From positions 1 through 22,145 of IMG/VR virus record IMGVR_UViG_3300031758_000642: a stretch of DNA of 22,145 nucleotides, one strand, 5' to 3'. The notes below the pieces were generated by a model. The model had not been told where the DNA came from, made no database searches, and saw only the letters and a list, made by a program, of their open reading frames with translations. The stretch comes from a virus. Position 1 is the stretch's first letter. Each line of letters starts with the position of its first letter. Made by a program: the position numbers and the translations under genes. This document shows positions 8,503 to 16,367 of the stretch, in pieces.

Positions 8503-9005
8503 GTCTTTACATTATCCATCACATACTTATATCTATTCCAAATAACATTCTCTGGTTTCCAGAAATGCTCTTTGTTAAATTTCATTTTAACATGATGGAT
8601 CATTGTAGTATGATCTCTATTACCTAAGATAACTCCAATCTTAGTGAATGGCATATCATACTTATCTCTTAAAACATTTATAAGTATTGATCTTGCAATT
8701 ACTGCCTGCTGTATTCTAGTCTTAGCAATAATATCATTTACATTAACACCAAGTTGATTGGCTACGATTGTTAAGATCTCTTTAACATTCTCAGGTACAA
8801 CTACATCATTAATAGTTACATACTTAACTACTTCTTTAATAACAGTTTGTTTATGTCTGATGTTTGTTTTAAAAAATTCTTTGGCAAGTTTATATCCACT
8901 CTTAAATCCTAAACGATAAAACTTTCTATCTCTATCAGATACATTCTCATACACATTGGCTGTGTATCTTAATTTGATTTGTTGTCTAAACTCTTTTAAC
9001 GTCAT
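8499..9005 (-). CDS. DnaA domain-IV-like DNA-binding protein lacking the AAA+ domain
   Basis: 168 residues. Residues 71-140 follow the DnaA C-terminal pattern: VPENVKEILTIVANQLGVNVNDI, then KTRIQQAVIARSILI (helix with conserved R and AR), FTKIGVILG, and the signature GNRDHTTMIHHV (128-139) that reads DnaA boxes in bacterial DnaA. The ATPase domain is missing; the N-terminal 60 residues are a basic helical region (RRKFYRLGFKSGYKLA-like). It probably binds DnaA boxes without loading helicase and could either compete with host DnaA or mark a phage origin. It is the last gene of the minus early block. Leader CAACTGAAAGGG lies 7 bases upstream of the ATG. Confidence 0.85.
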   Translation of the reverse strand: MTLKEFRQQIKLRYTANVYENVSDRDRKFYRLGFKSGYKLAKEFFKTNIRHKQTVIKEVVKYVTINDVVVPENVKEILTIVANQLGVNVNDIIAKTRIQQAVIARSILINVLRDKYDMPFTKIGVILGNRDHTTMIHHVKMKFNKEHFWKPENVIWNRYKYVMDNVKT

Positions 9006-9066
9006 GACTTTCCCTTTCAGTTGTAAACAACTTTACGTTGTCTTTCGTTGTTATGTTAATAATGAC

Positions 9067-9225: not shown

Positions 9226-9397
9226 AAACTAAATCATCCTTCTGTTTAATAGTTGTAAAAACTGTTTTGATACTGCTAATCTTAACATCAATCACTACAC
9301 CTTTGGCAGCTGGATCTGATGCAATTTCTGCACTATCAAATTCTTCTGTATAAACAAAAGAACATTCACAGTTCTTATTACGAAGGAACTTTACCAC
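9155..9397 (-). CDS. Small early protein of unknown function
   Basis: 80 residues. A beta-rich N-terminal half (VKFLRNKNCECSFVYTEEF, then GVVIDVKISSIKTVFTTIKQ) is followed by a disordered Ser/Asp/Lys tail whose DNA also encodes the start of the next gene in another frame. The start codon overlaps the stop of the DUF6378-like gene by one base. No family recognised. Confidence 0.5.
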   Translation of the reverse strand: MVKFLRNKNCECSFVYTEEFDSAEIASDPAAKGVVIDVKISSIKTVFTTIKQKDDLVCGKTKDSSAKDERSTRDATSQSS

Positions 9398-9720
9398 TAT
9401 TTATCCTTTTTGGCAATACTGTTTTTATTCCTTAGATTCTTAGTCATCTTACAGTAAATGGCTAGATCATCGTAGCTATCAGCTTTATATTTCTTAGTGC
9501 AACGATATAGTTTAAGTGCCATCATTAAATGACCAACATCTTCAGGTGTTAATGCCAATCTTATTTTATCAAATAATACTATGGAGAATAGCTCTGCAAG
9601 TAATGCAAAGTTTTCTTCATAATCACCATAATCTTCTTGGCGATCTTTAATTATTTTCTTTTGTATCTTTTCTTCAATGTCAATAAAGTCTTCTTTGTTA
9701 ATCATGTATATCCTTTTCAT
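9397..9720 (-). CDS. DUF6378-like protein
   Basis: 107 residues. After a short N-terminal extension, residues 27-90 match the DUF6378 pattern: RQEDYGDYEENFALLAELFS, then a helix, LTPEDVGHLMMALKLYRC, and a final SYDDLAIYCKM segment. This all-helical family is widespread in phages and has the general look of MazG-like all-alpha folds, although no catalytic EExxE/ExxD set is visible here; function is unknown. Its messenger has a 93-nt leader with a strong three-stem fold that includes the purine-rich segment in front of the ATG, so translation is probably regulated. Confidence 0.7.
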   Translation of the reverse strand: MKRIYMINKEDFIDIEEKIQKKIIKDRQEDYGDYEENFALLAELFSIVLFDKIRLALTPEDVGHLMMALKLYRCTKKYKADSYDDLAIYCKMTKNLRNKNSIAKKDK

Positions 9721-9728
9721 TTGTTTAC

Positions 9729-9789
9729 TCTACCCTCGGGGACAACGAAAGGGTGGCTGAGAACAGCCGATGAAAACCCCAAGGGTAGA
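9729..9789 (-). promoter_or_regulatory. Structured RNA leader (riboswitch-like) of the DUF6378-like gene
   Basis: Read on the minus strand: outer stem TCTACCCT/AGGGTAGA (9789-9782 with 9736-9729, 8 perfect pairs); an A/C mismatch; stem GGGG/CCCC (9780-9777 with 9741-9738); an asymmetric internal loop (UUUUCAUC against about 13 bases); and a terminal stem GGCTG-UUCU-CAGCC (9768-9755). The 3' strand of the outer stem holds GAGGGUAGAG, the only purine-rich stretch before the ATG at 9720. A second ACCCU in the internal loop (9754-9750) could pair with the same AGGGU, giving two exclusive states. No known class was recognised. Confidence 0.75.
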
Positions 9790-9792
9790 ATG

Positions 9793-9815
9793 AATAACAA
9801 TTATTAGTTGTTATT
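9793..9815 (-). other. 8-bp inverted repeat at a stop codon
   Basis: AATAACAA (9793-9800) and TTGTTATT (9808-9815) flank a seven-base loop and cover the stop codon of the 9814-10155 gene. It is A/T-rich and has no U-run after it on the minus strand, so a full terminator is unlikely. It may stabilise the 3' end or space the folded leader that follows. Confidence 0.5.
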
Positions 9816-10155
9816 AGTATTGTCTATTACCGAAAGACTTATTGCTTGTAAATGGTTTCTTTTGAAATCCACCAGCTTTAAATCCAGGTTGTTTATTTGC
9901 TCCTGTTGTTACTTGTGCTTCTTTCTTAGTTAAGATCACAGTGTATCCACCTGTTGGATTACCTTCTATGTCTGTTCCATCAAACGCACAATAGTCGTAC
10001 CACTCACCATTAATATTCACATTCATCTTCCAGTTTTTTCCCTCTGGAGCTTTTGGTGAATTAGGTGCAACCATCACTGGTTGATTGTCGCCTGCTTTTT
10101 TATTTAAGTTAGGAACAAGATTTAAATATATCTTGTTCTTTGGTTGGTCGTTCAT
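9814..10155 (-). CDS. Early protein beside the annealing-like gene; candidate single-strand-DNA-binding partner
   Basis: 113 residues. The N-terminal part has KNKIYLNLVPNLNKK; the core has PEGKNWKMNVNINGEWYDYCAF and GGYTVILTKK, a short beta-rich block; the C-terminus is a Gly/Phe/Lys/Asn-rich disordered tail (GFKAGGFQKKPF) ending in RQY. A compact beta core with a flexible tail, right after an annealing-like protein, is the usual place and shape of a phage single-strand-binding protein, but no OB-fold signature is certain. The start is one base after the stop of the previous gene. It ends in front of the structured leader. Confidence 0.45.
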   Translation of the reverse strand: MNDQPKNKIYLNLVPNLNKKAGDNQPVMVAPNSPKAPEGKNWKMNVNINGEWYDYCAFDGTDIEGNPTGGYTVILTKKEAQVTTGANKQPGFKAGGFQKKPFTSNKSFGNRQY

Positions 10156-13393: not shown

Positions 13394-14152
13394 ATGGGTA
13401 AATACGCAAGCCATATAAGAGTTCCTGTAAGTTTATTTAAGAACGATATATTCTTAGGCTTGGCAGGTAGGAATAAAGCCGATTGTTTAGCGATACTTGT
13501 TGTGCTTTTGAGATACTCAAATCAGAAGACAGGCGAATGCTACCCACGTCTTGCTCATATGCACAGCCTACTTGGACTATCTAAGGCTACAATTTATAGA
13601 CGTATTAAGTTAATGGTGTCTATTGGTTTGCTTAAAAAGAAGCGGCTTTCCTCTACTAATTTGTATAAACTTAACCCTATTTTAATGGTAGGGAGCAGTC
13701 AGGGTGACGTGAGTGATACGTCAGGGGGACTGATCAGTGCAGTCAGGCTGACTGGTATTAATAAAGATAACTTTAATATATATCTTAATAGAAATAATTC
13801 TAATAATAAAATGGATAATGATAATAGAATAGATGATATTATAAATAGGTATAAGAATGATAAAGATGTATTGATTAGTACATTGTCTAAATTCTTACAG
13901 ACTACCCCACTTGCCGAACATAACAAGCTATTAAACAACCCAACTTATAAATGGTATATGAAGCTAGTGTTGGAATATAGACAGCAAGAGCTACGCCAAA
14001 AAAAACTACTGCCTGAAACTATTGCAAAGCAAAAGATAACAGAGGCTTTACAAGCCAATGGCAAGAAGCGAAGCGAGAGATATGTTGCTCGTGTTAAGTA
14101 CAATAAGGCAAATGGAATTAAGCCTTGGGAGAGTAAGAAAAACAAATTCTAA
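13394..14152 (+). CDS. Helix-turn-helix replication-type protein
   Basis: 252 residues. The N-terminal half is a winged-helix domain of the HTH_36/replication-protein type: RVPVSLFKNDIFLGLAGRNK (1-27), a CLAILVVLLRYSNQKTGECYP helix and turn, then SLLGLSKATIYRRIKLMVSIGLLKKKR with the recognition helix near 67-80. The middle is Asn/Asp-rich linker. The C-terminal half is helical and basic, ending RVKYNKANGIKPWESK. Phage proteins of this design often initiate replication or recruit host helicase. It is probably the phage replication initiator or a loader; this is inferred from fold and neighbours. Confidence 0.65.
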   Translation: MGKYASHIRVPVSLFKNDIFLGLAGRNKADCLAILVVLLRYSNQKTGECYPRLAHMHSLLGLSKATIYRRIKLMVSIGLLKKKRLSSTNLYKLNPILMVGSSQGDVSDTSGGLISAVRLTGINKDNFNIYLNRNNSNNKMDNDNRIDDIINRYKNDKDVLISTLSKFLQTTPLAEHNKLLNNPTYKWYMKLVLEYRQQELRQKKLLPETIAKQKITEALQANGKKRSERYVARVKYNKANGIKPWESKKNKF

Positions 14153-15603: not shown

Positions 15604-15723
15604 TTAGTAGTTAGTTAGTTTAAAGTATTCATCTAGGTAAACCAATAAATGAATTGCAGCATAACCTAGTAGAATTATTATAGCTGTAGCAATTAATGCT
15701 TTTAGATCTGATCTATTAAACAT
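15604..15723 (-). CDS. 39-residue membrane micro-protein
   Basis: MFNRSDLKALIATAIIILLG, followed by a short amphipathic helix with YAAIHLLVYLDEYFKLTNY. One membrane segment lies at residues 9-28. The ATG overlaps the stop of the preceding gene by one base (TAATG), indicating coupling. Small membrane proteins like this can act in early takeover or superinfection exclusion, but nothing in the sequence says which. Confidence 0.55.
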   Translation of the reverse strand: MFNRSDLKALIATAIIILLGYAAIHLLVYLDEYFKLTNY

Positions 15724-15908
15724 TATGCTACCTCCTGTTGTTTAAACTCTTCTATTTCTGTATCCATATAATTTTCAAAGTAATCATCTTCTAATGCTTC
15801 AACTATTTTATCTTCAATAAAATTATTGTAAGCATCTTCTTTATTCTTACCTTCAACTATATATTTTCTAATTAAGCCAGGATATTCTGTTATTACATAT
15901 TTTTTCAT
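15723..15908 (-). CDS. Small acidic protein behind the repeated leader
   Basis: 61 residues: MKKYVITEYPGLIRKYIVEG, a helix with KNKEDAYNNFIEDKIV, then an acidic end (EALEDDYFENYMDTEIEEF). The layout resembles small (K)Y.V....G..(R)KY.VEA.N.EEA...F phage proteins of unknown function. Its 23-nt leader (15911-15933) is identical to that of the 15932-16342 gene, so both probably share the same translation signals. GAAAGGG is the ribosome binding site. Confidence 0.55.
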   Translation of the reverse strand: MKKYVITEYPGLIRKYIVEGKNKEDAYNNFIEDKIVEALEDDYFENYMDTEIEEFKQQEVA

Positions 15909-15910
15909 TT

Positions 15911-15933
15911 TATAACCCTTTCAGTTGTTATTT
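15911..15933 (-). repeat. Conserved 23-nt gene leader, copy 1
   Basis: Identical on the same strand to 16345-16367; contains GAAAGGG and AACAACTG on the minus strand. It precedes the 15908 ATG by two bases and carries the ribosome binding site. Confidence 0.85.
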
Positions 15934-16342
15934 AATTAGATCTATAAACGTAATAAGTATTACCATTTACATTTACTTCATTTTCTTCATGATCGTATGA
16001 AGCAATAAAATGTCCACGACCATCAGAACAAACAGCATCACTAACAAAATGATCGAAGTCTTTTATTAATGATTTAATTGCTTCGTTGCTATCTTCATGA
16101 AGCTCTTGAAGTTTTTTAATAACTTCTTCATCTACTTCAGTATGAGCTGCAATAAAATCAGATCTAAAAAAGCAAACGCTTTCTTCAATGTAATTATATA
16201 CAGCTTCATCAGCTTCATCATCAGTATAGACTAAGTAATCATCCATGCTATTAACTGCTTCATCAATAGAGCAATCAAGATGTTTAGCTAACGCTTCAAT
16301 TTTTTCTTGTTCTGTTTTATCTACTGTTTTTACTTGTGTCAT
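15932..16342 (-). CDS. Acidic conserved phage protein (SDGRGHFIASYD motif)
   Basis: 136 residues, strongly acidic. IEALAKHLDCSIDEAV, MDDYLVYTDDEADEAVYNYI, FFRSDFIAAHTEVDEEVI, then DHFVSDAVCSDGRGHFIASYDHEENE and a final YYVYR. The (L)(V)(L)TD.EAD......YI..S...(F)......HT.....(E)...(I)..........DGRGHF..SYDG.E pattern is frequent in phages; no biochemical role is established. The charge allows DNA mimicry, but that is inference. Its leader is identical to that of the preceding downstream gene. A TTGACA lies 53-58 bases upstream of the ATG. Confidence 0.6.
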   Translation of the reverse strand: MTQVKTVDKTEQEKIEALAKHLDCSIDEAVNSMDDYLVYTDDEADEAVYNYIEESVCFFRSDFIAAHTEVDEEVIKKLQELHEDSNEAIKSLIKDFDHFVSDAVCSDGRGHFIASYDHEENEVNVNGNTYYVYRSN

Positions 16343-16344
16343 AT

Positions 16345-16367
16345 TATAACCCTTTCAGTTGTTATTT
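16345..16367 (-). repeat. Conserved 23-nt gene leader, copy 2
   Basis: Second exact copy, before the ATG at 16342. A shorter form (CAACTGAAAGGG) precedes the DnaA-like gene at 9012-9023, and CAACTGAAAGG precedes the plus-strand gene at 20884. Confidence 0.85.

Follow-up and report, generated by a model that had tools for sequence, protein, structure and literature searches.

A structured RNA in the genomes of pelagiphages

The minus strand of the window (the whole stretch of viral DNA analyzed here, 22,145 nt) contains a real structured RNA element that is widespread and new to Rfam. Its hairpin is kept in at least four pelagiphage lineages at the same operon position, with an early gene on either side, and is built from unrelated stem sequences. 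The preliminary description had placed a structured RNA just upstream of a start codon, and its conservation is now strongly supported by the fold and by compensatory changes in relatives. The element must be under strong selection, because the RNA is kept from freshwater to marine phages despite full replacement of its stems and at least six different downstream genes. SAR11, the host of the pelagiphages, is among the most abundant bacteria of sea and lakes. No description of a regulatory RNA in pelagiphages was found in the literature searched.

The window was searched against Rfam 15 together with further relatives, among them five isolate phages, and no family scored above its gathering threshold. 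The best sub-threshold matches were plant-type miRNA models, on both strands.

Fold of the element

The features of the element and its surroundings are collected in Table 1. The 86-nt stretch folds on the minus strand with a minimum free energy (MFE) of −33.7 kcal/mol (z = −5.45), and none of 200 shuffled sequences was equally stable. Its fold ranks first among 4412 segments of 86 nt from both strands of the 22-kb window. The long outer stem of the preliminary description is real, but the division into stems of eight and four pairs was wrong; P1 is one continuous helix of 15 pairs. The asymmetric internal loop and the capped five-pair hairpin (P2) reported with it are both present in the MFE fold of this strand. 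A further hairpin, P0, had been overlooked. It adjoins P1, was seen once a longer context was folded, is present in the MFE structure of that context, and overlaps the UAA stop codon (9816–9814) of the upstream gene. The conserved loop is exposed in the window fold, with unpaired probabilities of 0.59–0.99.

Table 1. Coordinates of the RNA element, its flanking genes and possible pairing partners of the loop.
Feature	Position	Strand	Remarks
Upstream gene, constant neighbor of the element	9814–10155	−	without family match
P0	9793–9815	−	8-pair AU-rich hairpin; arms 9815–9808 and 9800–9793
P1, 5′ arm	9777–9791	−	15 pairs with 9741–9727; covariation
Internal loop, 5′ side	9769–9776	−	UUUUCAUC; U4–7 in all lineages (alignments)
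P2	9755–9768	−	5-pair capped hairpin GGCUG-UUCU-CAGCC; 9768–9764 with 9759–9755
Exposed conserved loop	9742–9754	−	ACCCUUUCGUUGU; core CCCUUUC in all four lineages, rare variants
P1, 3′ arm	9727–9741	−	holds AGGGUAGAG, called hidden in the preliminary description; the conserved start uses a different SD
SD of DUF6378 gene, AAAAGGA	9711–9717	−	outside P1; conserved in relatives
Conserved start codon of DUF6378 gene	9703–9705	−	from relatives; 9720 is a local in-frame ATG
Downstream gene, DUF6378 (PF19905)	9397–9705	−	Pfam score 63 bits, for the form starting at 9720
Possible partner, GAAAGGG SD of DnaA_C-like gene (start 9005)	9012–9018	−	
Possible partner, ACAACtGAAAGGGT leader of ORF 15723–15908	15916–15922	−	
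Possible partner, ACAACtGAAAGGGT leader of ORF 15932–16342	16350–16356	−	

No intrinsic terminator (a G/C stem with a U run behind it) was detected on either strand, nor any promoter-like or terminator-like site that would mark a separate small RNA at the element, and these candidates were dropped. Elsewhere in the window, the most stable 86-nt fold apart from the element (−32.2 kcal/mol) lies at 13671–13756 on the plus strand inside the ORF 13394–14152, with a z of just −1.7 in longer context.

Compensatory changes and the folded strand

Covariation in homologous leaders, the check proposed in the preliminary description, is clear. The freshwater alignment contains 39 distinct sequences; its cells pair to 97.1%, and sliding the partner by one column reduces this to 41.7–48.5%. 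Fourteen pairs have changes on both sides, giving 135 double-changed cells, a number reached in 0 of 500 shuffles. Compensatory changes are present in P0, P1 and P2. All five pairs of P2 have changes on both sides in the freshwater alignment, as do four of the eight pairs of P0, where 96.8% of cells are paired. Such changes hold P0 together as AAUAACAA/UUGUUAUU, AAUAAUAG/CUAUUAUU, AUAUAAGU/ACUUAUAU and UAUACUUUUUA/UAAAAAGUAUA, and it persists in marine relatives with other sequences and loop lengths.

The marine type has 67 double-changed cells (0 of 500 shuffles). The cells of the HTVC010P/034P group pair to 87.8% overall, in an alignment that misplaces P2 for part of the group, and to 96.7% within P1. 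All 384 P1 cells of the HTVC203P group are paired, 50 of them as G-U. Taking the three alignments together, P1 contains 75 + 81 + 50 = 206 G-U cells and 0 A-C cells. Selection on the opposite strand would leave A-C cells. The folded molecule is therefore indicated to be the operon-sense (DUF6378-sense) RNA, single-stranded DNA of the same strand being formally possible, and the same counts rule out an antisense RNA from the plus strand.

Occurrence and neighboring genes

At least 80 loci in IMG/VR have close relatives of the DUF6378 gene, and in nearly all of these the element lies between that gene and the same upstream gene. The structure is also found at the equivalent place in the isolates Skadi, HTVC203P, HTVC010P, HTVC034P and Lederberg. 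The stem sequences are unrelated, the P1 arms being CUACCCUUGGGG/CCCCGAGGGUAG in a freshwater example, GGUGUGUCGAAG/CUUUGGCACACC in HTVC034P, UCUUGGGGGAG/CUUCCCCAAGA in HTVC203P and GGUGGGGUGAGG/CCUCAUCCCGCC in Lederberg. P1 ranges from 11 to 15 pairs across the family. P2 is missing in the Lederberg type, where the element is a plain hairpin with a loop of 21–27 nt, and is different in the other marine types. A model of the HTVC010P/034P group run on whole phage genomes found the Lederberg element with E = 2e-5 and that of HTVC203P with E = 0.002.

There is one credible copy of the element per genome. Second copies in HTVC010P and the relative G009 were weak model matches without a hairpin of this kind (that of HTVC010P lying antisense within an annotated gene) and were taken as chance. 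The element also occurs on a contig (PBPJ01000001.1) of a metagenome-assembled genome named as a Woesearchaeota archaeon; this contig carries a Lederberg-type pelagiphage, and was probably misbinned.

The upstream gene is identical in kind at every element locus inspected. No family matches its protein, for which the structure model was too poor to be of use. The structure model of the DUF6378 protein gave no PDB match at E < 1. The preliminary description took the leader as a regulator of the DUF6378 gene. In at least 14 loci, however, a different gene comes after the element, and at least six unrelated genes can take that place. These include a 32-aa ORF (beginning MTLGFG, MTFEFG, MTAQFG or MTTEFA), MNKAAY (180 aa), MSKADD/MSNADK (198 aa), MKPVNI (156 aa) and MKYINK, with MKKSSA (185 aa) as the case from a freshwater phage. 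With a constant upstream gene and varying downstream genes the element has no fixed link to DUF6378, and regulation specific to that gene is rejected.

The gap between P1 and the next ATG is 9–19 nt in HTVC010P/034P, 11–14 nt in HTVC203P and 14 nt in Lederberg; in freshwater phages it is mostly 19–24 nt and includes an SD. This tight spacing may in part reflect how compact phage genomes are. Two further observations concern the genes themselves. The DUF6378 gene of HTVC010P (27652–28196) is annotated as overlapping fragments, which suggests a frameshift or sequencing error. Among the structural genes of the window, the ORF 1008–1676 on the plus strand has a stretch that by eye resembles an HNH endonuclease (EVHHIIPKSCGG...NNLVALTAREHYIIH).

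The Shine-Dalgarno sequence lies outside the stem

Relatives do not have the ATG at 9720, and their protein starts at the residue equal to the ATG at 9705 in the window. The stem holds the only purine-rich stretch ahead of ATG 9720, as had been stated, but the conserved start has its own SD (AAAAGGA, or ACAACAAAGGA in many relatives) outside the stem, with a predicted unpaired probability of 0.64–0.98. SDs of the freshwater and Lederberg types likewise lie outside P1, and none is recognizable between P1 and the start in the HTVC010P, HTVC034P and HTVC203P types. Because both the SD and the conserved start sit outside P1, the proposal that the outer stem locks the ribosome binding site fails. 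A different closure is plausible for some members of the family, those of freshwater and Lederberg type: there the loop CCUUU(C)GUUGU may pair with AAACAACAAAGG, the leader that contains the SD, and so control it in cis.

A conserved pyrimidine loop and its match to SD leaders

Two features are kept in every lineage while stems and flanks vary, namely the run of 4–7 U following the 5′ arm of P1 and the core CCCUUUC. The few variants of the core include ACCUUUC and UCUUUUC. It is open in the folds of the window, HTVC010P, Lederberg and the relative L219. In the HTVC203P group around 33 nt of the pyrimidine-rich loop hardly vary. The 16S rRNA tail of alpha-proteobacteria generally reads ...CCUCCUUUCU, so that the loop comes close to an anti-SD sequence.

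The loop matches, as a complement, SD leaders of the very phages that carry it: AAAGGGA in the marine ones, ACAAC..GAAAGGGU in the freshwater ones, and sometimes the SD of the next gene. GAAAGGG occurs four further times in the window, and three of these are SDs. Two ORFs of the window have ACAACtGAAAGGGTtata(a/t)aATG in common, which differs by one inserted base from the reverse complement of the loop ACCCUUUCGUUGU, and ACAACtGAAAGGGA ahead of the start at 9005 is also complementary to it. The loop complement GAAAGGGAA(A/C) or AAAGGGAAA is found at SDs in HTVC010P, HTVC203P, Skadi, HTVC034P and Lederberg, mostly those of small early genes; examples of loop-complementary leaders are AGAAAGGGAAA at 33780 in HTVC010P and GAAAGGGAAC at 938 in HTVC203P. 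Pairing with the DnaA leader was dropped as a conserved rule, the freshwater and marine leaders being too variable. In marine relatives the sequence before the ATG of the DnaA_C-like gene is a strongly kept GUAGGGGAU(C/U)U, which does not resemble an ordinary SD. Several freshwater phages have almost the same leader, ATAACAACTGAAAGGGTTATAA(A/T)ATG, in front of small early genes that differ from one another (15900–15925 and 16342–16360 on the minus strand of the window; G001 15764, G002 25991 and G005 490), and these shared sequences look as if they were recombined or co-regulated.

We counted SD variants in 21 phage genomes. In marine pelagiphages AAAGGGA is the AAAGG variant most associated with SDs (30 of 53 occurrences), above the canonical AAAGGA (109 of 289) and AAAGGT (48 of 448). 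The base after GGG in SDs is A in 30 cases and T in one in marine phages, where the loop has UCCC, and A in 10 and T in 12 in freshwater phages, where the loop mostly has ACCC. This shift may be a single evolutionary step. With CCCUUUC kept, the freshwater loop flanks fit freshwater leaders more closely than shuffled flanks (−0.83 vs −0.21 ± 0.20, 2 of 60 shuffles being as extreme). HTVC203P flanks prefer marine leaders (4 of 60 shuffles as extreme), and the other two loops tested are neutral. When exact runs were scored with CCTTT kept, the fit was reached by 2.5–10% of flank shuffles in five genomes and by 18–89% in the other seven. Taken together, these comparisons speak for a match of loop and SDs beyond chance, at modest significance. 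One gene has orthologues with different SDs, GAAAGGGT in the window, where the loop is ACCCUUUC, and GAAAGGT in the relative G003, where the loop is ACCUUUC; the G003 SD is short of one G and matches a loop short of one C. Orthologues of the putative early targets were detected in just three relatives.

In cis, loop and SD form predicted duplexes of 10–12 bp in freshwater leaders of the AAACAACAAAGG type, with z of about −2 to −3.4, and one of 9 bp with the Lederberg leader. Pairing is no better than shuffles for AAAACAGAAAAGG leaders, and z is near 0 for freshwater leaders of the AAAACAG type.

Possible functions of the element

We tentatively favor an intercistronic structured RNA whose open, anti-SD-like loop would act by pairing with SDs. 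The element appears to sit between cistrons of the phage recombination/replication operon, where P0 and P1, with P2 where present, would serve as a scaffold, insulating the following gene from the one upstream and keeping the pyrimidine loop open. Base pairing of that loop with SDs would lower translation. The partner may be the SD of the next gene, which in the freshwater and Lederberg types would give a pseudoknot, or the SDs of other phage transcripts such as those of small early genes and the DnaA-like gene, the RNA possibly being cut out of the operon before it acts on them. We take the loop to be the functional heart of the element and, tentatively, SD pairing to be the explanation that covers most features. 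Such pairing is supported by a loop core that is unchanged while the sequence of P1 is fully replaced. Against it, any CCUUU loop fits an SD, and the near-invariant loop of the HTVC203P group exceeds what a seed requires; the three marine types without a downstream SD weigh against pairing in cis. If the loop does pair with SDs, it provides a handle on the timing of early vs replication genes in these small phages.

The strong conservation of that long HTVC203P loop would also fit a protein that reads it. An RNA-binding protein of phage or host (for example one that binds pyrimidines, ribosomal protein S1 or the product of the upstream gene) might recognize both the U-run and the CCCUUUC loop carried by P1, and so set downstream translation or stability. 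The marine arrangement, with a start codon 9–19 nt after P1, no SD and any downstream gene, is consistent with this, as is the constant upstream gene. Yet no candidate binder was found, the upstream protein being as uninformative as described above, and the match of loop flanks to lineage-specific SD leaders is left unexplained. We regard protein binding as a serious alternative, if a less likely one.

A role in RNA processing or stability, akin to the RNase III sites of T7, is likewise a serious alternative, though it too seems rather unlikely. P0 would protect the upstream message and P1/P2 would be cut, thereby separating two units of expression. This accounts for a big structured gap that comes after several overlapping genes in an operon with no other gaps, for the maintenance of the stop-codon hairpin by compensatory change and for a position fixed to the upstream gene. 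However, a P1 of 11–15 pairs is short for RNase III, an invariant CCCUUUC is unnecessary for cutting, and in the Lederberg type there is just a plain hairpin.

A stronger form of SD pairing is more doubtful still. The element might be a trans-acting anti-SD RNA that silences small early genes of the phage itself, or host genes that share their leaders, via GAAAGGG-type SDs, with loop and leaders co-evolving between lineages.

It is improbable that the element is a ligand-binding translational riboswitch of the SAM-II/SAM-V sort, an H-type pseudoknot in which the loop would pair with the SD and the U-run would lie in the major groove. The order P1, U4–7, CCUUUC(GUUGU), P1′, A-rich linker and AAACAACAAAGG makes the topology possible in the freshwater and Lederberg types, but three marine types have no SD partner, the downstream gene varies and Rfam gives no match. 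The two-state switch of the preliminary description, in which P1 flips to pairing of its AGGGU with a second ACCCU, is scarcely credible: that second copy is indeed present in the window (9754–9750), but the alternative pairing is 11.8 kcal/mol worse with an ensemble probability of 0, marine relatives keep CCCUUUC without AGGGU in the arms of P1, and P1 does not cover the SD or conserved start.

Comparison with known systems

The likeness to a hammerhead ribozyme is confined to the letters CUGAUGA and CGAAA on the plus strand of some relatives. This is not the selected strand, GAUGA becomes GAGGU in other relatives, the core letters (CUGANGA...GAAA) vary, and there is one hairpin instead of a three-way junction.

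SAM-II/SAM-V and preQ1-II are H-type pseudoknot riboswitches. The freshwater type resembles them in the possible loop-SD pairing beside a U-rich first loop and in its A-rich linker, but P1 is much longer, the marine types have no conserved SD partner and there is no Rfam match. The early RNase III sites of T7 are irregular hairpins between early genes, with an internal loop and an upper stem. The pelagiphage element shares this form and location; unlike the T7 sites, its loop sequence is conserved and its stem is not, and the upper stem is missing in some lineages.

The alpha-proteobacterial anti-SD small RNAs of the NfeR1/alpha-r14 type have CCUCCUCCC loops and are described as free-standing bacterial sRNAs (PMC10746234). 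Compared with them, the pelagiphage element lies within a phage operon, has a single core CCCUUUC and has no promoter-like or terminator-like site that we could find. The two are alike in having a hairpin loop that is nearly a copy of the 16S anti-SD and is complementary to SDs, which is a likeness of features.
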